Assembly: GCA_029378245.1 (NCBI GenBank)
Contig: JARKIF010000020.1
Span: forward strand, 682,001 to 746,000
Source: Roridomyces roridus
Taxonomy: Eukaryota > Basidiomycota > Agaricomycetes > Agaricales > Mycenaceae
Reading direction: 5' to 3'
Length of the DNA: 64,000 nt
Position numbers and translations under genes: made by a program. This document shows positions 5,008 through 64,000 of this stretch, piece after piece. The first letter of the stretch is position 1, and each line of letters opens with the position of its first letter. Below the pieces are notes generated by a model. That model made no database searches and was not told where the DNA came from. It was given only the letters and a program-made list of their open reading frames with translations.

Positions 5008-6660
5008 ATGTCCACCGTTCTAGGGGTCATCGTTTTGGCACGCAACGGCGACCGGCGCGAGTTCTACCAGGACCCGAATACCTACCAACCCTCGCTCACA
5101 GACTCGACCGCTCTCGGTATGGCCGACCTGCACCTCCTTGGCGCCCAACTGCGCTCAGCGTACCTCAATCCCACCTCCTCCTCCTTCATCACCGACATCT
5201 CCGCCGACCTCGCGGACACACAGCAAGTCAAGGTCCTCGCTAAAGCGGGTGGCGAAGGCGCGGTCGTTTTTGATAGTGCGACGGCGTTGTTGCAAGGGTT
5301 GTTCCCTCCGACGACGCGGAATAAGCTAAGGTTGGCGAACGACACGGTGGTGATGGCGCCGCTCGGAGGGTATCAGTATGTGCCGAGTGAGTTTATAACA
5401 TCTGCTGAATTTGGGTGTGGTTGACGCGATGTGAATAGTGGAGACAGTGGAGCCTGGGAACGACCGTTCCATGGAGAGTTGGACGGGATGCCCGGCCTTC
5501 GAGAAGCATATCGCGGGGTTCCACAAATCCGATGCGTTCAAGGCCAAGGCTGAGGACGCGGAACCATTTTTCAGGGATCTCAAGGATTTTGTGTTTGGTC
5601 GGCCGACAACACTCGAGAATATCGTGCGTGTCTGTATACGTTTTTATGTGCGCTGCTGACTGGATTATTTGCAGTGGAATGCAAGTCACCTGTACTCATA
5701 TCGTCGAGTCGCTAACGAGGGGCGTGGCTGCAGATCTACGATTTCTTGAACACTCAGCTCACCTACAACCAAACCTTCGCGTTTCGTCTCCCGCCGACTT
5801 ACATCGAGCAGGCACGCGCGTTGGCTGACTTCCACGAAGACGGCGTGTTTTCCGACGCCCACCCGAACGGGATCGGTAACAGTGCGTCATCCCACTTGAA
5901 GTTCCCCTGGAGACTTGTGCATATTCAAATGTATTTCAGTCGCAGGCCGCACTCTCCTCCACACGATCCTCAAGTCCCTCGAGCGGATCGCGTTCAACGA
6001 CGACCCGTTGCAACTCATGCTCATCCAGACGACGTACCAGCCATTCATATCTCTCTTCCATCAAACAGATATCGTCAGTCAACACCCCGAGCTCAAGGCT
6101 ATCCGTGCGTGTCTCCTCCTCCGTTCTAATTCCTGTCTCTCATCGCATTGTCACAAAAATAAAGCCAACTTCGCCTCGGCCCTCGCCATCGAGCTCCGCC
6201 GCACCCACGGACCTGACGCCCGCGACTTTTTGAGGTTCAAGTTCAAGAACGGCACAGCAGACCCCGAGGACTGGCAGCTCCTCCATGCGTTTGGACATCA
6301 TGCCGATATCCCGCTCACCGAGTTCATCTATCGCGCGGAGGGTTCGGCTGTTGGGAGTAATAGACATTGGGCGCAGGTGTGTGGGGTGAAGCCTTCGGGT
6401 GATGGTGATGACGTGCATGCGTCTCGATTCGGGGGTGCTGTGCCATTTGGTCTGGGTTCGGTCCTACTCCTTGGATTCTTCTTCCTCGTCGTGCTTGCGG
6501 CCAGAGTTATCCGTGCCCGGCGTGACCGCGCGTATGTACGCGTCCCGAGTGACGAGGTGCGTTTTCCTCTTCTTCTCATTCTCAACGGTTCTGACGGAGG
6601 ATGTAGACGAACAAGATGCAGCCGATGGTGGAGGAGATAAAGGGCGTCAGCATGGCTTGA
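5008..6660 (+). CDS. Histidine-phosphatase-fold membrane protein, probably catalytically dead
   Basis: Seven exons join with consistent phase: 5008-5386, 5439-5623, 5675-5680, 5734-5881, 5940-6104, 6165-6556 and 6607-6660, giving about 442 residues. The product resembles the agaricomycete 'phosphoglycerate mutase-like' branch of the histidine acid phosphatase superfamily: an N-terminal strand ending L-A-R-N-G-D-R, a central G-G-Y-Q-Y-V-P, and a C-terminal G-H-H-A-D-I-P-L. The superfamily's first motif is R-H-G-x-R, and its His is the nucleophile. Here residue 13 is Asn. Hydrophobic residues about 388-408 (V-L-L-L-G-F-F-F-L-V-V-L) form a C-terminal membrane anchor followed by a basic R-A-R-R-D-R tail, so the domain probably faces the cell exterior or a lumen. 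Exon 3 is only six bases (Trp-Asn), and the intron after it is GC-AG. Family assignment is confident; loss of activity is inferred. Confidence 0.82.
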
Positions 6661-13967: not shown

Positions 13968-14120
13968 GGGTTCATTCTCACGCCTCACCGTCGCCCTACG
14001 ACCTGGAGATCAGCGGTTTGGGAAGTCGAACCTTCCGCTGCTCCTCCACCCCCAACGAACATCTGTGGCTGCCTCAGATTTTATTTCAATTTCCAGACAC
14101 AAACGAAGCGCAGAACAAGA
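13968..14120 (+). repeat. 153-bp repeat, copy 2
   Basis: Second copy of the block at 13545-13697. Here it is followed by unrelated sequence, not by the 168-bp block. Confidence 0.85.
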
Positions 14121-15161
14121 AACAGGCCCAGGTTTCATGTATGTAAGTAAGCACGTGGAAACTGGCAAGAAACGGAGGCCTTGCCGAGACTCATCAATGT
14201 TTGGACAACTTGAACCCAGGCTCATTTAGAGCTTTCAAGTAGAGAGAGACGGGCAGAGCCCGGAGTTTGTCAGTCCGCTGGGCCTGGCAGTTGAACGGGC
14301 ATGTCATCCTTGTGGGGAAATCTGATTAGAACCCAATCGAGCAATTCCTCGACAACGCTGTTGTCATCCAACTGCGATGCAACTGCCGCGAATTACATAT
14401 TCGACAGGCAATCAATGATCTTCCGAAGACTCCGTGGATTCCGAGGACGGAGGAAGAGGCACACGAAAACCTCATGCAGATCAACGCCGATCTCGCCAAG
14501 AATGACAGCTGTACTAGTTGGTCTGATTGAGGTGCAACCCTTGTTGAATTGTTCCGAATTCGACAGCTAAAACGGTTAAATTCTATCCGCCGGCGCGATT
14601 ACAAAGGCAAGAACTTCCAACCGGCTGTTCCAACTCGAGTACCTGGAGTTCCAGTCACGAGTGCTGTATTCCGAGAGGACACACGTCTTCGGGTGAACCA
14701 ACTGTTACCATTCGGCATCATGGCTAGGGTTGCGTGCATCAAGTATCAATTCTTCACTGTCGTGCACTGTTCTTCTCTCTATTCGAACTTTTCGAAGAAT
14801 GAATACAAGCTAAGCGAGTGTCCGTGCGCGCCCCGACTCTTTCATTAAACCATCCACGGCATCACAAGCAGCGCTCTCAAGTTCCGGGGCATGCGGGAGT
14901 GCCGGCACTACAATCTATTGCATACATTTGTCGGTGATCTCGGAACGATCGCTATGTTGGACCAGTTGGTCGAGTGAGTGACCCTGAGAACGAAGCCTCG
15001 GTTGCTCGGATCGCCAATGACGAACGCTCGGATGTTCGGAGGCAGGACAGGATTAAACATGATATTAATTTTAAACAGGTCCATGCGTAGATTATGCTAG
15101 CTGGTTCAGTGTAAAGGTACCGCTGTGCCTGTCTCCACCGCCTGAACTACCGTGATTCGGC
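14121..15161. other. No supportable gene
   Basis: No recognisable coding sequence, RNA gene or repeat boundary was found between the 153-bp repeat and the 3' end of the Zn2Cys6 gene. Confidence 0.4.
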
Positions 15162-50486: not shown

Positions 50487-53400
50487 ATGGCGTACTATAA
50501 CCACCCACTCCGCCCTTCGTTGTCCTCGAACAACCCTTTCCAATCCGCGCGCGCGACACACGGCCTCACGGTGAACCCGTTCGCTGGCCTCCCGTCCTCC
50601 GCCTCTTTCGATGACGCGTATACCACGGAGGACCCTACCCATCCTCCAGTGCGACAATAAGTGCCCATGCAACATCACGCTCGTTTCGCGACACCTCCAC
50701 CCTCATCCATCCCGTACATTCCTCCACAACTCCGTCCCGTACGCACGGAACCCAGCTCCGTATCACAGTACGTCGCGGACCCGGGCTACATCCCCCGAGT
50801 CAGCCAGCTCAAAGTGTCCGGTTGGGCGGAGGAGGACAAACTCTCACTGGAATCCGACAATTGGGCACAATGGAGCACACGGGTTTTGGACGAACTTGGT
50901 CTGCAGCATGGCGCAAAACGTTTTCTCCAGCATGACGCAAAAACTCCTCCACTCGAATTCTTCCCCGAGCAACATCACTGCTGGATGGCATCGGACGATG
51001 TCGTCCGCTCGTTCTTGTCAACCGTATGCTCGCGTGCGGAACGGAGCTACATCGACGGGTGTACATTGGCGAAGGAAGTTTGGGAGGCTCTGCGACGCCG
51101 TCACGAGGAGCGAGGGCCCGTGGGCCAGATCAAGATCCTACGTCAGATGCTCGCGCTGACCCACGGATCTGACCCCAAGACATGGTCGCAAACCAACACT
51201 GCGATTGACGACCTCAACAAATCGCTTTGGGCGAGCGGGGCTCCCGATCCGGACTCCTTCAAAGCGGTCATCCTCCTCATGTCCCTGACGAGCAATCACC
51301 CAGCGTTCGTCCAATCCATGTTGGGCCAGACAAATCTCAGTCTCGGCGTCATTCGGGAACGCATGGCCGCGTACAGTGCCTTTGACCCTTCATCAACTCC
51401 CTCCTCGATTCCCTCCACGGCATTTGCGGCAATGCAGGCCCCAACACGATGCACGACTCGTGGATGCCCTCGCCCCGAAACCCACACCTGGCCTTACTGC
51501 ACAACGCAAGGGGGTGGGATGGCAGGAAAGACGGTGAAAGAGGCTCAGGCGAAAGCGAGAGCGGAAGGGGCTCCCAACGGGCGAGGGAAGACAAGTAACG
51601 AGGGCGGAGGAACCAAAACGCAAAAGTTCGCATTCAAGAAAAACGCCGACGGCAGGGCCTGCATGACCATCGACGGCACCGATTACCTTCTAGCGCCGGC
51701 GCCTCCCGCAAACCTCTCACCTGCAGCCTCCGCCCCGATAATTCCTGCGGCTCATTTTGCCAGCCTGAGCACCGACCCTCTGCCCGAGGGGGTGGACCCG
51801 GTGTACGACTGGGAGGCGATGCTCGCCGAGGATGACCCGAAGGCCTCGGTGAACTGGAACGACATGCGCGGACCCGTTGTGTGCACCGCTGTCGGTGACT
51901 TCATCATATATGCAGACACGGGAGCCAACGTGCACATCACTCCCCATCGCACCGACTTTGCCACGTTCACAGAGATCGAGCCGCGCCCTATCAAGGGTTT
52001 CCAAGGGAGCTCTATCAACGCCGTGGGCATAGGCACGGTTGTCACAAGCGCGTTCACCCTGCAGAACGTCCTCTACATCCCGGGCGCCTCTATCCGCCTC
52101 CTCTCCGTCCTTCGGCTATGCCGAGAGCTACAAATGGAGTTCCATTGCGACGACAAGCGTGCCATCATCACCGACAAGACCTCTGGTAACATCGTCTGCG
52201 ACGGCTCGGTCCATCTCGAAAGAAATCTCTATCGCATGCATTGTGCGGTCGTATATCCAATAATTGCGAGCGCCACCACCGAGCCTACCCCACGCTCCTT
52301 ATCCAGCTACCACTTGCGCCTAGGTCATCCCCATCACCAAGCCATCGTCGACATGTATCAAAACGAGCTGGTTGACAGTATGGACCTTGACACTTCTTCC
52401 GACGCGCCTGTTTGTGACTCTTGCATTCGGGGAAAACAGGGTCGCACAAATGTACCCAAGGAACGCGTCGGGGATAAGTCCACCCGTAGGCTGCAGAAGG
52501 TGCATGTGGATCTGAGCGGAAAGATAGATGTGAAGTCGAGAAGCGGAAATCATTACACGCTCGATATTGTGGACGACTATTCTACTCGGGGTTGGTCCAT
52601 CCCCATTCCTAATAAATCATCCGCTTTTGACAATCTGCGCGCGTGGACACTGGCGATGGAGAACAAGACCGGAGAGAAAGTGGGACGATTCACAGTGGAC
52701 AATGGAGAGCTGCAGTCCACGGCGTTCGAAAAATGGGGCGCAGAGCGGGGATATGAGATCATCTACACACCGGCACATGTGTCCAAGATGAACGGAAAAT
52801 GTGAACGTTTTCACGGCATCGTCCATGGGAAGGCGAGGGCAATGCGCTTACAGTGCAACGCGCCGGAGTACCTGTGGGACGAATTCTGCGTAACCGCTGC
52901 ATATTTGCACGCCAGAACACCTTCTCGAGCACAGGGAGGTCGCACCCCACACGAATTCTTCGAGCTGTCCAAGCCCAACATCTCCCACCTACGTGAAATA
53001 GGCTGCCGGGCATTTGTCCTCATCGAGAACAAACATAACCCCAAGGTGTACGCTCGCTCCCTGGAATGCGTACTCATTGGATATGCTCCTCGATCCAAAG
53101 CCTACAGAGTCTGGAATCGTACGAATGGACAGGTCTACAATTCATACAACGTTCGATTCATTGAGTCTGGACAAGTCGAGAAAGTCAGCTACAACCCCGA
53201 CCGCTTGGCAAAGCGCTTGGCAAAGCCCAGCCACATCGACCCCGAGGCAAGCGTGCCAGATGACCAAAGCGCACCAGATCCCGTCCTACGCACTTCCTCT
53301 ATCCCCGATGGTGGAAAAGTCCCAATCACCCAAATTCCCGGCACACCTGAGCTTGAAACTCCCCCCACGTTGCGCCGGTCCACCCGTACCCGAGTCCCCA

Positions 53401-53868
53401 TACGCCATCCGGATGGCACGGTCGTTATGGCCACGGAAGAAAGCCGGCCCATGGACAGTGACCTAGAGCTCGTAATGGACTATGAACGTACGGCGGCGGA
53501 AACACCTGAGGACGACGACGGGGAGGAAACATGGATCACGGAACAACTGAAAGGACCCACGCTCGTACAAGGAGGCCATGGCGGCGCCTGACAGGGAGAG
53601 ATGGGAGGAGGGTACAAGGGAAGAGTTGCAGGCAATGAGAGACATGGGGGTGTACCGGCTGGTGCCGCCTTCGGCCGTCCCGCAAAACAAGACCGTCCTG
53701 GACTTGAAACCTACCTACCGTCAAAAAAGGGACATGGCTGGGAACGTGGAACGGCACAAGGTGCGATACTGCGCGGGAGGAAACAGACAGGTGTTTGGTA
53801 GGGACTATACCCAAACCACTTCGCCGACTGCCCGCCTGGAATCTTTTCGCGCCATCCTGCATATCGCC
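50487..53868 (+). pseudogene. Copia (Ty1) retroelement gag-pol, interrupted and truncated in RT
   Basis: The frame starts M-A-Y-Y-N-H-P-L-R-P at 50487. It meets an in-frame TAA at 50658-50660 and continues open to 53591. Domains in order: UBN2-like gag, an aspartic protease (A-D-T-G-A-N-V-H), GAG-pre-integrase with the H-H-C-C zinc site (L-G-H-P-H-H ... C-D-S-C), and an integrase core (V-H-V-D-L-S, F-T-V-D-N-G, E in G-K-C-E-R-F-H). The RT start is in another frame from about 53560 (R-E-R-W-E-E-G-T-R-E-E-L, then L-D-L-K-P-T-Y). RT ends at H-I-A where the inverted-repeat element begins at 53866, and RNase H and the 3' LTR are missing. Order protease-integrase-RT is diagnostic of Copia. The element is dead in its present state. 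Confidence 0.88.
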
Positions 53869-53982
53869 TACGGTAAGCGAGACGGTTGAGGTTCGTTTCC
53901 AGGCTGAGAGATGTCAGATGTCAAACCTGTCGGATAGATAACCGTGATAATCATCAATCTATCAGCGGCCGGGATGTTATCA
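53866..53982 (+). repeat. Left 117-bp terminal inverted repeat
   Basis: Reverse complement of 59099-59215. Just inside, CTCGGCAA and TTGCCGAG (54003-54024) form a small hairpin related to CTCGGTAAG at the right end. Confidence 0.85.
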
Positions 53983-54210
53983 CTGATGATCTCTGTTCCG
54001 TACTCGGCAAGATGATTTGCCGAGCGTGTGTTGCATGTGATGTCTGTTGCGCAAATCATGTAAAATGAAGACTGTTCCACTGATTGAAGTGCTCTACATT
54101 AGAACAGTAAGCCTGAGCAATACCAGAATGCTCAGTTTGGAATCAGTGATGAAATCACAAGCAGATCAAAAAGGTAGAGCTCAATTGTTCGGACACGCTA
54201 CTCAGTACAG

Positions 54211-56705
54211 CTAGTCATCGCCGACATCCTGGTCATCGCCGTCTTCACCAGGACCCGCGCCCTCTGATCCAGAAGCCTCAGTTGCATCTGGGCCCGGAAT
54301 ATCTGCCGGGAGCTCCAAGGGGAAGATGTCGTCAAACTCGAGCCGTTTGCACAACTGGTTGCACTGGTGAGTGTTGATGAAAGACTCAATACCCTCGAGA
54401 CCAAAGTCTCCAAGGCCGGAACCCCTGTATAAAAACATTAATTTAGAGCAATGAGACTAGGGACAGACACTCACCCGTCTTGAGTGTGGGTCATGACATC
54501 AAACAAAACCAAACCATCATGACCACGGACCGTAGCGGGGGTTCCTTGAATATCAGCCATAACAAGTGTTCCGGTGGCGGAACCGAACACATAATGTGCA
54601 AAGCTGTGAATGGTGAGGTGCGTGAGGTCGGAGCCACGAGCCTTGTGGTTGAGTGCGGAGGTGAATTGAATGACAGCCGCCGCACGCTTGGGCTCAACCA
54701 TCCACGTCATTCCCTCATCCTCGAAGCTATCAAGGCCAGAGGCCACGCTGGGTGAGCGGGTCACTTGAACCAGCATCTCTTGGGCAAGGTAGGCTGAGGA
54801 AAACTCGATGACTAGACTATAGTTTAGGGCAGTCTTTGAGAAAGGGTCACGGTGACGCACAGTTAAAAATTGCAACATCCATCTCCTTGCAATATGCCAC
54901 AAAATCTCCAAAGAGTTCCCTGCCCAGAGCGAGACGGTGGCACTCGGATTCAAGTAGCGCACGATTATGCACCACAGACACGCCGTTAGAGAGCGAGTGA
55001 GAATCGTCATCGGATGTACGGTAGATACGCTTGGCAACAGCGCGTTCCTCCTTGTCGTTGACAAAGATGGTCATCTGGGTGGAGAAATGAGTTGCAGTTC
55101 AGCCCATGCAAATTAACCACGCACATCATATGCAAGTTTGGAACCGCCCTTGGCAAAATGCACGTCGTCGATGACTGCTTCAATTTGCCCAGACTTCTGG
55201 ATGAGTTCTGGCTCGTACTGGGGTGGATGGACGGAGATGTCACATCTCTCAAGTGTTACACGCGACTGAGTCTTGGGTGTCATAAGTGCGGGAGTGCGGC
55301 TGGAGCCGGCGGCACCAAAGCGCGACCCAAGGGTTGAACCGATGTCTAGAAAAAAGTAGAAACAAGATGAGACAAAGCCCGTAGAAATTTCACGCAATAG
55401 ACATACTTGAATTGGTCAGTGCACGAAGACGCTTACTGAGGCCCCCAGAACTGGTACCCGAGATGGCGCGCTTTCGACTGGTAGAATTTGGTTCGTCTAC
55501 ATTGAGGTTGCGTGCCACCGCATCGAGCTCTTCACGATCTCCGTACTAAGAAAAGTTAAAACCTGAGTCAATATAAGACAGGCATTCACGCACCGAGTCC
55601 ATGTTCACCACCAACTCGAGGCAGAGTAGCTTCGTATTATGGCCCCGGGCAAGGGTGCGGAAGATACTGGGAATATTGTTAACGTACGTCGCAATTTTCT
55701 CAGTTGTTGAGGAATGCATCATATAGAAATTGGCCAAACTGCCGGTCATTGAGTTGGGTTCGGGAAGGCGATTGCCGGACCAGCGTAGATCAACGTCGCC
55801 ACTACATGAGATGGAATGAGATCAAAGGTATGTACGCAAGACGAGAGCAGTGGACTTACATCTCAAGTGGGAGCATCCCAAGCTTGTACTTGACAAATTG
55901 CGGCGACACAACATCAACAATTTCTTGAACGAGGTCTATCAAATACCATTAGATGAGTTGAAAACTTTTTTTGGCAAGAGAAATACATACCTGGCATGGG
56001 GATGGACGACCGGTACAGCTTGATGAGGTTGCCAATCTTGGTATTGGTTGCCTTTGAGTCGCTCATGCGAGTCTACAACATGTTCAGTTGAACAAACAGG
56101 CAGTTACTGTGAGGAGGAGAAGAACATACCATTACTGCAAGCCGAATCATATCCTCCGCCTGGCCACCAGTCCCTCCCTCGTGGAAGATCAGAGCGGCCG
56201 TGTGCAACGAAGTGCCGGCTCTGGTGGTGCCCACAGAAGTACGCAAGCGCTGTTTCATGGCAGCAGCGCGGGCCTCATAAGTCTCCGGCACACTGTTTGT
56301 GTTGTTGTTGTTGGATGTCGATCCGCCTTAGCCCCAGTCATCAAAGGTAGGAATGAAGAAAGGAACAGAAGAAAAACATACCCTGGGTGCCGGAAGTGGC
56401 ACTACCATTCTCCTTCCGAGCCTCGTCGACACAGCGGGAAGCACCACAGGTCTGGATGGTGCCAATCAACGGCATGTTGTTGCGGCGTGTGAGGCCGCAA
56501 AAGGCGCACTGCGGTTGTTCCTGCCACACAGTAGTCAGAATGGGTATTGTTGGGTCCACAGATCACTTACCTCAAGCTGCTGGTAGTCTGCAGTGTCGCG
56601 TTTAAACTGAGACAACTTCTCGCACTTTTGACAGATACTGTCATCGGTGCGGAGACGGAAAGTGGTCCCACAGTCGGAACATTGGGAGGGTGCGGTCTCG
56701 GTCAT
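54211..56705 (-). CDS. Alpha-type protein kinase (MHCK/eEF2K-like) with zinc-ribbon-like N terminus
   Basis: Eleven minus-strand exons join without a phase error: 56705-56571, 56520-56382, 56326-56130, 56072-55991, 55935-55860, 55801-55594, 55545-55407, 55345-55125, 55074-54861, 54811-54475, 54424-54211 (about 653 residues). Cys pairs C9/C12 with C25/C28 and C50/C53 with C70/C75 suggest two zinc-binding modules. The C-terminal third is an alpha-kinase: I-H-S-F-A-H (His 539, 543), V-M-A-D-I-Q-G-T-P (Asp 557), F-D-V-M-T-H, G-L-G-D-F-G-L-E-G-I, and H-Q-C-N-Q-L-C (Cys 604, 608). The His/Cys set fits the family's structural zinc site, and D-x-Q-G is its active-site motif. A very acidic tail follows. 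All expected motifs are present, so activity is plausible. Basidiomycetes have many such kinases. The substrate is unknown, and its location in a mobile element is the odd feature. Confidence 0.9.
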
Positions 56706-57315
56706 TCCAGAGTTAGTTATTTGGGGGAAGTTCAGTGAAAGACTGGGAAGGGACCTTCGTGCTTTTAAATCTCGTGAATGGTCGGTTAAGTTTGAGCAGC
56801 TTGAGCATCCTAGGCGGCGCCAGTGATGCGCTTTCAGCTGAACGGAGTAAGTGTCGACGGGGTTGTGCAAAGCAAAAGAAAAAAAAGACGGACTTGAACG
56901 GACCTTGGACCAACTGTGAATTACGGAGTGGAACGGGAATGAGCCGCCGACTGGAATTCAACGGACTGGAACGGACTGATTCGGGTGGACGGACTTGACC
57001 GGATTGCTTTGCAAGAATTGGCTTGGCTTGAACAACGGACTGGAACGGGCTTGAACAGGGAACAACTAATAGAATGATTAGCATGATTACTTCCCAATCG
57101 ACTAACCGCTGTTCAACACAAGTTCAACAACAATTGAAAGGATTACTCACCTGTATGCTCAGTCAGCCACCAACGGCCCCGGCATGTTGGGATGTGCATT
57201 AGACGATACAATCGTCCGCTCGGCACCTCCATGATGTTTCCAGGTGCGTCGGAATATTGTGACTTAAAAGCTCAGCGAGAAAAATATCCCTTTCATAACG
57301 CACCCACCAAACACG
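56706..57315. promoter_or_regulatory. Divergent promoter region between the kinase and the DDE gene
   Basis: The two start codons (56705 minus, 57316 plus) are about 610 bp apart, so one intergenic region serves both genes. It holds several copies of GGACTGGAACGGACTGA-like text (about 56960-57050; ACTGGAACGG and CTTGAACGG repeated), possible regulatory or transposase-binding repeats. Confidence 0.4.
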
Positions 57316-58910
57316 ATGCCAAATCCTACTGGCAAAAATGGGCATCCATCTCAAGACCGTGAGTTTGCAATGACACATCTCCCAGTTGAATCCTGATAAT
57401 TCCTTAGCTCCTGACGATGAGAAGCTTCGGGAGGCCCTCCTCAAATATGCACGGCAGGGATTAAGTCGCGAGCACCAGATTTCGGCTTTGGCGTCCAATT
57501 TCAAGTATCATATTAGGTGTGTTCGATGTTCGCTACCGCTTTGGCTGTCTGATGATTTTTTTCTCAGACTAAGCTCTCTCCGCAAACTCAAAGAACGGCT
57601 CGGCATCAAAGCCAGTGTGCGCACGCAGAAGCTGTCCGTGGACCAGGTCAGACAAGCCGTTGTTGATGTGGTGGAGAGGGATCCCGCTCAGCTGCGTGGA
57701 CCGGCATTCATCAAAGACCAACTTCGTCTCAAAATGCTATTTGCTCCCCGGTGTGTTACTATCTTCTCCACAGCAATTCAGCTGAAAAATCCGCAAGTGA
57801 TCTTATCCGCCAAATCATGGTTGAACACTACCCCGGTGGCTTCGAAGTTCGCTTCCCTGGCCGCAAGAACCGTCGCGTAATTCGTGTTCCTCTGCGTGCG
57901 AGTGGTCCGTACTATGAAATTAGTAGTGATGGACATGAGAAACTCGCACCTGCTGCTCTCCGCATGGGTGGAGTGGGCTTTTCCATCTACGCATTCAAAG
58001 ACAAATTCACCGATGCACTGGTTTTCATCAAAGTTTTACCAGACATACGTAGCGCCGGGGCTGGGGGGCACATTTTCCTTGACTTTGTTGAGCACACCGG
58101 ATGTGAGTACTTTAACTCAGATGTGTCTGACCGTTCACTCACAAAGCATTCCTTTTATCGCAGTCATTCCCATCCAACTGACGACGGATAAGGGTTCTGA
58201 GGTTGGATGGATCTATGCATTTATGGCGGCACTGAGGTATGTGGTCCATAATTTGCGGCACATCCGCTGACCCTCTTTTGTCAGAGAGATGTATGCCCCC
58301 GACATCGATCCAGCACTATATCCATTCCATGTCCTGATCAAGAGTGTTCATAACACTGTAATTGAAGGATTTTGGCGGCACTTGAAGGAGAAGTTGGGTT
58401 TGAATTTGAAGGATTATCTGTTGAGAGGCCGGGCGGAGCATCTGTTCAACCCTCATGATCCATTACACGAGTAAGTTTAATCAACTCAGCCTGCCCTGTG
58501 ATTTGACTTACATTGGGTAATGTAGGCCTCTTTTCTATTGGATCTTTTCTCCTCTCATCCAGCGGGAACTGGATGATTTTGCCGACTGGTGGAACAATCA
58601 TCGCGTTCGACACCAGCACGACAAGATAATGCCGTCGGGGCATGTCCCATCGCACGCTATGGAGTATCCTGAACTGTTTGGGGCGCTTGACTGTCGAATC
58701 AAAGTCCCCCAGGTTGCAATTGATGCACTGCGGGATCAGATCAGTGGTGAGGAAGGTCCTAAATCACAGTTTCAAAGCTGGCCAGGCCTCACGGCAGAGT
58801 TTGATGTGTATGCATGCCGGGTTTATGAAGAGATTGGAGAACCCACTCTTACTATGGAAACAGGTTGGGATGTGTTTGTTAATATGACTGTTGCAATGAC
58901 TGTGGCGTAG
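57316..58910 (+). CDS. Integrase-core (DDE) protein, probable transposase of the element
   Basis: Seven exons: 57316-57358, 57408-57516, 57568-57750, 57774-58102, 58164-58236, 58285-58470, 58526-58910, about 435 residues. A helix-turn-helix-like N terminus (L-R-E-A-L-L-K-Y, L-R-K-L-K-E-R-L-G) precedes the catalytic region. Candidate acidic residues are Asp164 (S-S-D-G-H-E-K-L), Asp230 (T-T-D-K-G-S-E-V) and Glu273 (H-N-T-V-I-E-G-F-W). The C terminus has D-W-W-N-N-H-R-V-R and ends Y-E-E-I-G-E-P-T-L. I recall this integrase-core family from many agaricomycete genomes. Phase is consistent only if a 23-nt GT-AG segment (57751-57773) is removed; that is either an ultrashort intron or a frameshift. 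Other introns are 48-61 nt. It probably mobilises the element; this is inference. Confidence 0.82.
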
Positions 58911-58975
58911 CTAGAATACCATGTTCGATGCACTCATACCACATCACTTCCGTTGAGTTGGCCGAGTAGCCTCAA

Positions 58976-59215
58976 TGATAACATCCCGGCTGCTGATAGA
59001 TTGATGATTATCACGGTTATCTATCCGACAGGTTTGACATCTGACATCTCTCAACCTGGAAACGAACCTCAACCGTCTCGCTTACCGAGTAGCCTCAATG
59101 ATAACATCCCGGCTGCTGATAGATTGATGATTATCACGGTTATCTATCCGACAGGTTTGACATCTGACATCTCTCAACCTGGAAACGAACCTCAACCGTC
59201 TCGCTTACCGTAGGC
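58976..59215 (-). repeat. Right terminal repeat, tandemly duplicated (2 x 123 bp)
   Basis: Two adjacent copies (58976-59098, 59099-59215) of the terminal inverted repeat, virtually identical to each other. The left end of the element has only one copy. Confidence 0.9.
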
Positions 59216-59327
59216 TGGCAGCGGGAAACAATCTCTCTGCTACAGACTCGGAAGCTATCACACCGCATTGCCGCTATATCTACTGGGAGGTTCCACGCAG
59301 AATCGGCACCTTCTTTTTTTCTTCCCC

Positions 59328-59694
59328 ATGACTGTGCTCGCAGGCCGACCGCTTTTCCTCTTTCTTGGATTGTTGAATTTACTCTCCGGCCTATTTCCAG
59401 TGACTGCTGCGCCAGTCGGTGGCATAGTCGGCATCGCCGAGGTCGCCCTTAACTCGGGAGACATATTCTTAATCGTGCTCGGCGTCTGTGAGTAACTTGT
59501 ACCTCATGGCCTCCCATCGAACTCATCCTCCGTCTCCGAATCCAGTGGTGTTTCTGATGATCTCCGCCGTCGTCTTGGCACACCTGGGAGAAAAGCTGCG
59601 GCTGAAGCGTGACCGTGAGCTCGCCGAATTCGGGAAGGCAAAGAAAATGGCTCCTCTGGATGCTCCGACACAGCCTAGTGGCGTAGCAGGTTGA
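59328..59694 (+). CDS. Small single-pass membrane protein 1
   Basis: Exons 59328-59487 and 59546-59694 give about 102 residues. The N-terminal signal peptide is P-L-F-L-F-L-G-L-L-N-L-L-S-G-L-F-P. A short polar loop is followed by a second hydrophobic segment spanning the intron (D-I-F-L-I-V-L-G-V-L-V-F-L-M-I-S-A-V-V-L-A), and then a basic tail (K-L-R-L-K-R-D-R-E-L). Same plan as the next gene (signal peptide, short loop, helix, K/R tail, one intron inside the helix), so the two are probably paralogues. No family is recognised. The gene starts about 110 bp beyond the mobile element. Confidence 0.6.
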
Positions 59695-60275
59695 ACACGG
59701 GCAGTCATGGCCAGTTCAACATAGTAGTACTGGATGTATTCAACGTGGCTCTATAAGCTGGCAACACGACCTTTAACATTGCAGTTTTATGTACCGAATT
59801 TTGTTCGAGTATACGAAGGACCCGACAGTTCGAGTTGAAATTTGAACCTTGATTTCAACCATGATCGGATCAATTGATCATCAGCGCCAATATTTCAGCC
59901 GCACAGAGTAGACAAGTCTTGCAGCCGGGGGAGTTTAGTTGACACTCCGCTGCGACGGGACCAGTCGGAGTCAAATCGGAGTTCTAACAGTCGATTCTTG
60001 AATTCCCCGGCCCTCAGTTCTCAGGATCATAGCAGTCTAGAGCTGTTGAAATATTAATCTTCGTTTCGCCATTGGTAGAACAAAGCTATTGATTCCGCAC
60101 GTTCCATCTTTCGCCAGTCGGAGTTTCCATATTTCCGAGCGGACATTGAATCCGACTTGATGCGCCACCTTCCTGAACAAATCGAAAAGTCTTTGGAACT
60201 CCGCAGGCGGCGAGGAAGCCGAAGCGATGGGTATATAATAGATAGCTCTGGGTGAGACCTGCAACCGCCTTCTTC
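59695..60275. other. No supportable gene
   Basis: Intergenic sequence between the two small membrane proteins. GTATATAATAG at about 60230-60240 lies some 45 bp before the second start and is a good TATA-like box. Confidence 0.45.
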
Positions 60276-60574
60276 ATGACCTCCCAGACACCACTGTTAT
60301 TCCTCCTACTTTTGACCGGCCTACCTTTTGGTCTGGCTAGCGACGCGTCAGACGGCGCAAGCGACCAGTTGACCAACGTGATCCAGTCCGGAATCCCAAC
60401 GGGAGACAAGGTGGCAATTGGGGTCGGAGTGGGTGGGTACTGATAATGTGCAACCGCATGCTCGAGCACTGACTTGTGAACTTCACAGTGTTCTTGTTCG
60501 GGCTCCTTGGCGCTTTCACTCACTGCGTAAAGAAGCGGCAGAAAGCGAAGGATGCTGAGAAGGCCGGGGCTTAG
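60276..60574 (+). CDS. Small single-pass membrane protein 2
   Basis: Exons 60276-60432 and 60489-60574 give about 80 residues. Signal peptide P-L-L-F-L-L-L-L-T-G-L-P-F-G-L-A, a short acidic loop (D-A-S-D-G-A-S-D), a hydrophobic helix V-A-I-G-V-G-V-V-F-L-F-G-L-L-G-A-F, then a basic tail K-K-R-Q-K-A-K. The donor was taken as GTGGGT because the alternative GTACTG four bases later breaks the helix frame. Paralogue-like to the gene at 59328. Function unknown. Confidence 0.6.
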
Positions 60575-60759
60575 GGCTACCAAGAGGTCTCTCCATCTCC
60601 AATTCGTCTCAGTTCCATCGCTAAAATGTGCACCAGTGGTCATTGAGAGTGAACATTGGATGTACGGCAGAACTTACGAAATCTTACGATGCACGATACG
60701 TCTCCAGTCTGGGTTTGCGGGAAATTTTGTATGGCTCTTCGCTCGAATCAAGTTCATGT

Positions 60760-62075
60760 TTATTCAACCTGCATTGTTTCTGTATATGGCTCTTGAAAGA
60801 GATAGACGATGAGCTCCTGCACGACCTTGACATTGACGCTGTTCCCGATGAGTCGATATTTAGTTTTGCGCGACATGCCGTTTGGCCAGATGAACGATTT
60901 CTCCGGGGTGAAGTTGAATAACCGGAGAAGCTCGTCGGGAGAAAAGTATCTGAGCCTGAGTGTATCGAGGATGCGAACCGAGTCGGCTGCGCTAGAAGCG
61001 AGGAACGTGTCAAAGACCGCTCCCGTCTGCGTGATTGTGAGCTGTGCACAGAGAATGTAGATAACGGAATTACATCCTCGTCTTCGTTCATTTGCAGGAT
61101 GGAGCCAGACCGCTCGACCAGCTGCGTATAACCTGGATAGCAAATGAGGGAAAAGAAGAAAAAAACAGAGGAAAATTACCCCGTGTGAAGCAGCAGGTGC
61201 GTCGTGAGGAAGGAAGGATGATGTCGAACAGTCTGCCCCATTTCGACAGAATTTTGTCTGGAATAGTGTAGTCCTCGACGAGTTCAGAATCAAGATAACC
61301 TCGTATTTCGCGGACATTGTCGTCTGGAGCGCCGTTCGATGCGCGAGGGTCAATCCATGCGCTAAAGCCAGGAATATGGCGCAAGGTTCCGCCGGGTTCA
61401 TGTCGGAACGCGAGGGGCATCCGTTTGGCAAGAAGATAATACCGCAAGCGAGAGTTGGGTATACCGAATTGAAGCGGAGTGAGTAGGAATTCAGCGATAG
61501 CGTATCCGAGGCTCTGGAGCGTCGATACAAGGATCTGGCGGGTGGTGGAAGTCTGGCAACATTCAGACAGGCGTTGAATGACGGAGTCAACCCTTACCTC
61601 GAAGCCTCCAACGTTCTCGACCAGGAGGTGAGTGGGATGCGAATTACTCTGCGCAAGTTGCGGAAGGATGTGCTGTACTAGATGAAGTAAGGACGCTGCT
61701 CGTGGGTCTAGTTCGCCTTTTGCCAAAGGATTCAAGACGGTGTACGGTTGGCATGCAGGGGACAGCAGCCACAGTGCTGCTTCCAGCGACTCCAAGTACG
61801 AAGCCGTCAGTGTTGAAATGTCCATCTAGTCCGACATTCAGACTGCGGATTAGATCTTGGTGAGGAATGACGGGACCTTCCTCGCGATTCCTGGGCCGAA
61901 GTTGGCAGAATAGACGTCACAAGCGTTTTGGTCCCAGTCAAAGGCATGTGTGATTGAGGCGGACACATTGCTGCGAGAGAGGGCTAGATGAAGGCCTCCT
62001 TTCATGCGGGTCAGCTAGGCGGATTGAGTTGGGCGGCGAGAGACCTATTCCGCTGTAAAATTCAACAGCCTTCAT
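60760..62075 (-). CDS. DNMT2: DNMT2 (TRDMT1-type tRNA cytosine-38 C5 methyltransferase)
   Basis: Six minus-strand exons (62075-62045, 61998-61877, 61825-61598, 61552-61180, 61132-61074, 61026-60760) join without phase error and give about 359 residues. Motif I is V-E-F-Y-S-G-I-G-G-L-H. Then D-W-D-Q-N-A, the catalytic-Cys motif S-P-A-C-Q-P-Y-T (Cys76; usually P-P-C-Q), E-N-V-G-G-F-E, G-I-P-N-S-R-L-R-Y, the DNMT2 hallmark C-F-T within R-T-C-C-F-T-R-G, and the closing G-N-S-V-N-V. The C-F-T motif and overall length separate it from DNA methyltransferases. Known members methylate C38 of tRNA-Asp in the cytosol or nucleus. The Pro-to-Ala change before the catalytic Cys is unusual. The start shares a 66-bp region with a divergent gene. 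Confidence 0.9.
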
Positions 62076-62141
62076 CGGGACATGGTCGTTCGGCTTCAAG
62101 CGAGTGATGCGATCAATACCCTTCTTCTTTCCACCATCATC
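62076..62141. promoter_or_regulatory. 66-bp bidirectional start region
   Basis: DNMT2 (minus, ATG at 62075) and the conserved gene (plus, ATG at 62142) start 66 bp apart, so their 5' leaders or core promoters must overlap. Confidence 0.55.
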
Positions 62142-63549
62142 ATGACCGTCTCGGATGCGGACAGATTCCGAATCGCAGTGGTGCGTTGGTCCTCTTGCAA
62201 AATAACAAGAATCGAATGTTTCTAGGCACTAACCGCTTTGAAATTCAAACCTGCCGACCAATCGTGTGCATGTAGGAGCTCAAAATTTTCTCGGTTTGAA
62301 CCGAACTCACCGGGTGCAGCCTACGTCTTGCATCTTCGCTCTATCTTTCCTCCATCTGCGCCTGCTGCTCCGACGACTGATGGATCATGGAAAAGCCATG
62401 CGTTGGCTCTGGAGAAGGATCTTGAGAAAATGAAGGAGAAGTATCAGGCCGAGCAAATCAGTCAGTGAATTTTCGGTGTATCTATCTCCTCATCTTAACG
62501 TCTCTCTTCTTCGGTGCCCGCCACCGAACCCAGCGGAAGTCAGCCCGTTAAACGCAAACCAAAAAAAAAGACGACGGACAAGATACCTGCACGCGCTGAC
62601 CTCGAAACCGTTCTTGCAAGCCTTGACGGGCGTAAGTCCAATCTTGTTATTGACATTCTTTTCTTGATTCACCAACAAAGGGCCGGATTTCGTCTGCCTC
62701 CCCGATTCAGAGTCGTTGTTCTCCAACTTTTCGGCTCTAAATCAACTCACTTTTGTGCTGGGAGCCTCAGAGACAGCCGTTACCACTGCCCAGCGGTCGC
62801 TCCTTGTTTCCACGGCCGTCCGTTGTATCACAACGCTCTCTGTTGTGCTACATCCCATCTTGCGTTCCACCGGAACCACCGCCTCTCAGGCCACGACACT
62901 GCATACCTTGACTGTTCTACTACACCATCTTACATCCTCTTCCATCCCCCTTCTCTTCCGCAAGTCCAAGTCGAACGCAAACTCCCTATTAAACAAAGTC
63001 CTTGATGCATTGATCACATTCATATTCAACCCCATCTTGGAATCTTTCTCGCCTCTCTCGCACCGGTACCTTGCGAGTCTTTTTTCGCCCACGTCCTCGG
63101 ATAATCTGCCTACCGACCTCCGCCCAGACGTGTTGCGAATGTTTCAAAGTGGATTCTCTCCGCTTGTATCCATTGCAGCTGCCTACGAACTCGATCTACA
63201 GAGCACACTGGCGCTGACAGCGCTACGCGAGTTGGAAGGTCTGTTCCCGGAAGCGCGCGTTCCTTGGACACACGACAGTCGCGTGAACGCGCTCGCCCGG
63301 AAAGATGCGTTGTGGTATACGTGTACCGCTCTACACACTCTATTCGGACCCATTAAAGATTGTTGGACGTCGTCGGGATCGCCGGGAGCCATTTCCGAAG
63401 GCAGGATAGCGGATGCCTTTTCCCGCATTGTCAGCCGCTGTCGTGGGTGTCGGACTGATCCGGATGTAAATGTTGGCGGGGAAGACATGGATGAGGTAGG
63501 ATATGGGATGATCCTGGGCATTATGGAGCGCTTTTGGGCGATGGTGTGA
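62142..63549 (+). CDS. Conserved fungal protein of unknown function
   Basis: Exons 62142-62180, 62226-62464, 62534-62631 and 62681-63549 join without phase error and give about 414 residues. It begins M-T-V-S-D-A-D-R-F-R-I-A-V. A short helix (L-E-K-D-L-E-K-M-K-E-K-Y) is followed by a Lys-rich linker (K-R-K-P-K-K-K-T) and a mainly helical C-terminal two thirds with many Leu/Ser/Thr. There is no signal peptide or membrane span. I do not recognise a named domain, though the sequence looks like a conserved agaricomycete hypothetical. Exon 2 has an Arg/Ser-rich part (about 62260-62330) that might hide another intron. Confidence 0.7.
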
Positions 63550-63564
63550 ATTGCTTTCAGGAAA

Positions 63565-63737
63565 TTATGCAGCGATCCGAATTACAAGATGCTCAGTCAC
63601 ATGAATAGTAACCTGTACGACTTGACGCCCCGCACGAACTTCCGGCCCCACCCGACCAAGGGCCTCCAAATTGTCTTCGCTCTCTTCCTCCTCCCCTTGG
63701 TCCCCGTCGTCCTCTTCACTTTCATCGTCGTCGTCGG
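63565..63737 (-). CDS. Last exon of a minus-strand gene (rest outside or unresolved)
   Basis: After an acceptor CGCAG the exon reads A-D-D-D-D-E-S-E-E-D-D, a long acidic run, then L-G-R-V-G-P-E-V-R-A-G and a short end V-T-I-H-V-T-E-H-L-V-I-R-I-A-A. The upstream exon, near 63783 and beyond, could not be joined with certainty. It is convergent with the gene ending at 63549, with only 15 bp between stops. Confidence 0.45.
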
Positions 63738-64000
63738 CTGCGAAGGTCCTTGTGCTCAGTAAGTTTAGGGTATTCTACCAGCGTCTTTTGGGAGGTCTCA
63801 ACGACTTGTCGGAGGATATCAGACTTATCTTAGGCCGCGGCTCATCCAGAAACTGCTCTCAGCACGGGGTCGAGAACACGGGGGCCCTTTTTGTCAACGA
63901 CCTCAACGCGGTGAGAATTCATTGGATGGATGCTCGAGTCGTCGGGAGCCTGCATCGAAGAAGGAAGCAAGAAAGTTAGTGCTGACAGGGAAGTTGATTC

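Follow-up and report, generated by a model that had tools for sequence, protein, structure and literature searches.

A TET-free IS3EU-type DNA transposon of a mushroom with an alpha-kinase gene opposite its DDE transposase gene

Genes and ends of the element

We analysed a 64,000-nucleotide stretch of the Roridomyces roridus genome (the window; GenBank assembly GCA_029378245.1, contig JARKIF010000020.1, here C113:682001-746000) against the complete assembly of 90.8 Mb in 501 contigs; positions without a contig name are those of the window. At 53869..59212, on the plus strand, lies a complete kinase-bearing element of the IS3EU type (copy A; 5344 bp, ends TACGGTAAG..CTTACCGTA). An alpha-kinase gene on its minus strand and a DDE transposase gene on its plus strand are separated by 610 bp between their start codons, at 56705 and 57316, respectively. 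The initial annotation had read these as two divergently transcribed genes within one inverted-repeat unit, and both the orientation and the enclosure are real. The unit is not a chance arrangement, because its ends and the entire 5.2-5.3 kb recur at four further places in the genome.

The inverted arms lie at 53866-53986 and 59095-59215 (121 nt, 98% complementary). When the copies were aligned, the true ends of the element fell at TA, at 53869 and 59212; the outermost three bases of each arm are flanking DNA that matches by coincidence. The repeats reported initially are thus upheld, whilst their limits (53866..59215, with 117-bp repeats) are corrected to terminal inverted repeats (TIRs) of ~118 bp at 53869..53986 (plus) and 59095..59212 (minus). 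The termini read TACGG..CCGTA in all five full copies. We considered TA as the target-site duplication (TSD) and ruled it out: the TA lies inside the shared ends of the copies, and 6-bp duplications lie outside them. The right end also contains a perfect 123-bp tandem duplication (58962..59207; units 58962-59084 and 59085-59207), which had been overlooked and which is found in copy A and one other copy (B, below) but not in the other three of the five.

The transposase gene (57316..58910, plus strand) has seven exons and encodes 427 amino acids with an rva_4 integrase core (Pfam PF24764, 1.3e-11). Introns of both gene models were placed by hand at GT-AG sites in the sequence, and both models splice without an inner stop; the deposited proteins of 653 (kinase) and 435 (transposase) amino acids are 98% identical to them. 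The DDE residues are D156, D222 and E265 of the 427-residue model, and among 40 aligned sequences they are kept in 39, 40 and 40, respectively. Asp164, Asp230 and Glu273, as first annotated, are the same triad in the numbering of the deposited 435-residue model (P0013). The predicted structure of the transposase had a predicted local distance difference test (pLDDT) score of 81, and its fold matched chains of TnsB, MuA and Rous sarcoma virus integrase with E-values of 1e-4 to 3e-4, at TM-scores of only 0.2-0.4. No match was obtained when the transposase sequence profile was compared with solved structures. The reading frame is open in 5/5 full copies.

The kinase gene (54211..56705, minus strand) has 11 exons and encodes 658 amino acids, with CxxC-type motifs in the N-terminal part and an alpha-kinase domain at the C-terminus. 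The match to Pfam Alpha_kinase (PF02816) covers the whole profile (1-185 of 185; 1.5e-23), and the domain shows the DIQG and His/Cys motifs that had been noted from the outset. In the numbering of the deposited 653-residue model (P0001), K414, H543, D557, Q559, G560, H602, C604 and C608 are kept in 11/12 or 12/12 aligned sequences, the sole exception being P0011. We take these sites to be the catalytic lysine, the DxQG motif and the His/Cys zinc site. A profile built from 11 kinase sequences matched the structures of myosin heavy chain kinase A (2.2e-13) and eEF2 kinase (4.7e-8) through its C-terminal part.

Compared with relatives on contigs C101 and C112, third codon positions change most in both genes; for the kinase against the C101 relative, there are 146, 103 and 248 changes at codon positions 1, 2 and 3 over 370 codons. 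The counts are restricted to stretches alignable as protein, a restriction that itself favours a third-position excess. Such an excess is what would be expected under amino-acid constraint, and it suggests that both the kinase and the transposase have been so constrained.

Copies, target-site duplications and an empty allele

A genome search found five full copies of the element, 99.8-100% identical. Copy B (C113:747790-753133) is inverted relative to copy A and 100% identical to it over 5343 bp. The remaining three are at C13:~299189-304408 (99.81% identity to the window copy, TSD ATCTAC), C442:~2498453-2503673 (99.90%, GACCAG) and C113:~90339-95559 (99.89%, GTCATG). These three have exact 6-bp TSDs of their own, and copies A and B have one jointly, as the two ends of the composite described below.

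For the C442 insertion there is an exact empty allele on C482: the predicted 300-base joined site, with a single GACCAG, was found letter for letter, and C482 matches a flank of the C442 copy at 100%. For the other two insertions we found diverged paralogous sites without the element, at 88% identity for C113:90k and at 71% on two contigs for C13. The initial annotation had proposed a search for the same gene pair with the same ends elsewhere and for empty sites; the outcome, five copies with three TSDs of their own and one exact empty allele, bears it out. To judge from these sequences, the element is a recently active DNA transposon.

Gene-free relatives of the element also exist. Two palindromes of ~185 bp with ~85% identity (C122:~14114-14298 and C46:~607128-607312) apparently represent one allelic site; each is flanked on both sides by ATCTAC, the TSD also seen at the C13 full copy, and they resemble miniature inverted-repeat transposable elements (MITEs) of the element's family. 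Their flanks are 97-99.9% identical over 1.8 kb each. Some small contigs, including those of the C122/C46 sites and C482, look like second haplotypes.

Kinase-transposase pairs elsewhere in the genome

A genome-wide search with Pfam Alpha_kinase detected 21 loci, among them the five full copies. A transposase-like DDE gene lies within 10 kb of 20 of these 21, and 19 of the 20 pairs are divergent. The exceptions are an unpaired kinase on C20 and a pair on the same strand on C201 (C201:566111-569590), the only one of its kind and possibly rearranged. A search with the window kinase gave 13 further loci, 11 of them within 10 kb of a DDE match and two (C20 and C468) not; if C468, which only this search detected, is counted in, 20/22 loci are paired. 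All locus counts are lower bounds, as the search was made exon by exon and only the best candidates were scored. The earlier suggestion that such an element might explain the number of alpha-kinases in basidiomycetes holds for this genome.

We scanned seven diverged pair loci for ends. Four of them (L029, L030, L038 and L039) have TACGG..CCGTA inverted repeats that match at 25/25 and enclose both genes; as a control, L030 was shuffled 20 times base by base, and the highest match next to a perfect 6-bp duplication was 13/25. Exact 6-bp duplications flank L029 (CACGAC) and L030 (GTAAGG), and a 7-bp duplication (ACCAGTA) flanks L039, on C458. L038 and L039 share one and the same repeat, and together with the window family and those on C101 and C112 this gives four families. 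Two sisters of the C112 element, on C13 and C334, showed only one end each at the predicted place.

A chance meeting of the kinase and the transposase as neighbours between unrelated repeats is refuted by the copies of the whole unit, the TSDs, the empty allele and the recurrence of the pairing, and we give it practically no credence.

Outside this genome, a protein search with the kinase, in which scoring was confined to the 7994 candidates with the most words in common, listed 12 proteins: one from R. roridus itself and 11 with fungal names, ten of which are from Mycena. The corresponding transposase search was taken to the best 120 of 181 matches. For 3/10 of the kinases from other species that come with a contig (those of M. 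amicta, M. kentingensis and M. alexandri), the kinase and a listed transposase relative apparently share that contig. This is suggestive only.

A composite insertion carrying host DNA

The initial annotation treated the window copy as a single unit and made no mention of a wider structure. It is instead one arm of a composite at C113:735869-753133 (17,265 bp) that consists of copy A, 6577 bp of host DNA (C113:741213-747789; the part within the window is 59213..64000) and copy B in inverted orientation. The sequence ATCGCC stands at both outer flanks of the pair, at 53863..53868 and, outside the window, at C113:753134-753139. On the left, the insertion abuts the pol gene of a Copia-type retrotransposon (50661..53868, plus strand), which it splits: when the outer flanks are joined with a single ATCGCC, a continuous Copia pol frame results (..HIAATKGWDIKQFDVKTAFL..). 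There are thus two full elements around a foreign segment with a single outer TSD and none at each element. In the genome we found only one copy of the composite. The simplest reading of these sequences is that the A/B pair entered the Copia frame as one insertion of 17,265 bp. We excluded that two separate insertions recombined and so inverted the DNA between them, as this would not give equal outer 6-bp sequences and a continuous Copia frame.

The host segment is also present elsewhere. It is colinear with C491:556724-562817 (96.9%) aside from a 516-bp repeat, and over its first 5493 bp it matches C455 at 99.66%, with two single-nucleotide differences and two indels. In stretches of 10 kb and 20 kb around these native places, we found no match to the element. 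The host segment contains a gene for a DNMT2-type cytosine methyltransferase (60760..62090, minus strand; approximate limits, unspliced), also found at both native loci, which matches chains of DNMT2/tRNA C38 methyltransferases in the PDB (2e-30) and Pfam DNA_methylase. EFYSGIG, towards the N-terminus, and C-terminal pieces occur in the unspliced frame pieces and are, we assume, DNMT2-type motifs; what is presumably the usual PPC motif reads PAC. The segment also holds at least one other long reading frame, for which Pfam gave no match. The 516-bp insert (C113:747226-747740) is absent at the native C491 locus, and parts of it match many places in the genome, as expected of a MITE-like sequence; we considered it as part of the element and rejected this, as it is composed of repeats found genome-wide. 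The native C455 copy ends at segment position 5493, near 230971, and the sequence that follows starts with TGTCGC, perhaps another insertion.

A perfect repeat of 5.3 kb can misjoin contigs, and copies A and B form such a repeat, with 100% identity along 5343 bp; a search with the left Copia flank, moreover, found no second, empty allele of the composite site. An assembly artefact is nevertheless very improbable. A single insertion predicts a left and a right end beside Copia, whereas here both outer ends are left ends; ATCGCC matches on the two sides and the Copia frame is continuous; and the host segment differs from both native loci (by the two single-nucleotide differences and two indels over 5493 bp against C455, and by the 516-bp insert and ~3% against C491).

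Copies A and B have all bases in common, including the 123-bp duplication, which suggests that one was recently derived from the other. This would also suit alternative (reversed-end) transposition during replication, a route in which the outer ends of two separate insertions would not have acted jointly. The native sites have retained the host segment, and maize offers a precedent for such events (PMC4270019). Against this, the segment is colinear end to end with one native locus and has no internal junction of two flanks. Both routes are possible; colinearity favours joint use of the outer ends, and we regard alternative transposition as doubtful, though with a real chance of being correct.

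Interpretation

We consider it very likely that the unit is an IS3EU-type DNA transposon that moves autonomously in a cut-and-paste-type manner and normally carries two genes, one for a DDE transposase and, in divergent orientation, one for an alpha-kinase. Its features are those of IS3EU elements: TA..TA termini, a 6-bp TSD and a DDE transposase with an integrase-like core. Cut-and-paste is the usual mode of such DDE elements. The transposase would bind the repeats, cut the DNA and rejoin it with a 6-bp stagger, a value indicated by the exact empty allele. The kinase would act on behalf of the element and license its movement, most likely through phosphorylation either of the transposase or of a host factor for silencing or repair. 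The outer ends of copies A and B would have acted jointly, much as those of bacterial composite transposons do.

Several observations weigh against this interpretation, besides the missing empty allele of the composite site. The placement of the element within IS3EU draws on its ends, TSD and domain only. Copies A and B have no TSDs of their own; we ruled this out as evidence against mobility of the window copy, because both copies belong to the composite, which accounts for the absence. The predicted structure of the kinase (mean pLDDT 49) was too poor for use of its fold. Among the diverged pairs, no exact duplication was found at the inverted-repeat ends of L038 (C223), and for 3/7 loci (L031, L032 and L033, on C257, C334:1.49M and C201) there was no inverted-repeat pair within the scanned stretch; their ends may lie beyond it or have decayed. 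The other points concern the kinase. Its frame is open in 4/5 full copies, that of the C13 copy being frameshifted, and no alpha-kinase was found within 10 kb of 23/43 distinct transposase-like loci or of 40/40 rva_4 loci (grouped from 74 rows). With so many DDE loci lacking a kinase, the kinases must belong to a part of such transposases. Many of the kinase-free loci, both the 40 rva_4 loci and the 23 closer ones, have long open frames; they could be kinase-free branches or decayed copies.

These last points, and the resemblance of the protein to a typical eukaryotic alpha-kinase, would suit a kinase that is cargo, either beneficial to the host or passive, with no part in transposition. We think this unlikely. 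The pairing and its orientation are kept in diverged families inside their own inverted repeats, 20/21 kinase loci are paired, and the codon positions suggest amino-acid constraint on a gene that, as passive cargo, would be expected to be lost often. Recurrence of the pair within inverted repeats in four families fits a kinase that is a working part of the element. Of the 'cargo or regulatory-kinase' arrangement proposed at the start, mobility is retained, and 'cargo' is probably the wrong word.

A bolder generalisation can be offered tentatively, as something that we find conceivable and hold at a little less than even: in this mushroom lineage, almost all alpha-kinases may be transposon property, each serving solely its own IS3EU element, to license movement or counter silencing, and selected together with the transposase, and two such elements may pick up complete host genes, such as the DNMT2-type gene found here, and move them in the manner of a Tn10-like composite. 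Given the 20/21 paired loci in this genome, the alpha-kinases that are listed among the signalling genes of mushrooms may in large part be genes of transposons. With its intact copies and empty allele, the element provides a concrete, recently active system in which to ask why a transposon keeps a protein kinase. The composite would be a clear-cut example from nature of two cut-and-paste-type elements of a eukaryote bringing host genes to a new site, and such two-element carriage would be one route of gene duplication in fungi.

Comparison with known elements

At its core, the finding adds to a known kind of element a member that lacks TET and comes from a mushroom. IS3EU/GingerRoot elements have TA..TA termini, usually 6-bp TSDs and a DDE core (PMC10045372), all of which the R. 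roridus element shares; a term search of the accessible part of that paper returned no mention of a kinase. The pairing of kinase and transposase had already been published for TET-carrying IS3EU elements. In the parts of Kojima 2025 available to us (PMC12730594), TET-positive IS3EU elements of rust fungi (Pucciniales), one of them also in Tuber indicum, have an alpha-kinase opposite the transposase, and both mentions of alpha-kinase concern TET-positive families. The rust set has TAYGG..CCRTA ends, TIRs of >30 bp and 6-bp TSDs, so that ends, TIRs, TSDs and the opposed orientation of the two genes are alike. In those elements a TET/JBP gene lies between the two genes, whereas in the R. roridus element, from a mushroom of the Mycenaceae, that position holds only the 610 bp between start codons and no TET/JBP gene; this gene marks the TET-positive subset and not IS3EU as such. 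A rust genome paper, as far as its text was accessible, tabulates the alpha-kinase family among Pfam domains (PMC5295586).

By titles and the openings of abstracts, in mostly open literature with Repbase outside the scope, we found no other report that joins an alpha-kinase with IS3EU, nor one of an IS3EU composite. As far as this search reached, the new observations are the TET-free form in a mushroom, the four families whose repeats enclose both genes, the 20/21 kinase loci beside a related DDE gene, and the composite with host DNA.

Among composites, the bacterial transposons Tn10 and Tn5 consist of two full inverted elements around a gene-bearing segment, with an outer TSD. The R. roridus composite has this layout but is eukaryotic and of the IS3EU type, and its segment carries a DNMT2-type host gene. 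Maize Ac belongs to a different superfamily, hAT. In Ac composite insertions (PMC4270019), the ends of two nearby elements are used jointly and DNA next to them is duplicated, with a TSD; those insertions contain joined, re-replicated flanks, whereas the R. roridus segment is colinear with a native locus. KolobokP (PMC9587614) likewise has a composite-like layout in a eukaryote, but there the transposase is encoded internally, between long terminal direct repeats of ~450 or ~660 bp.
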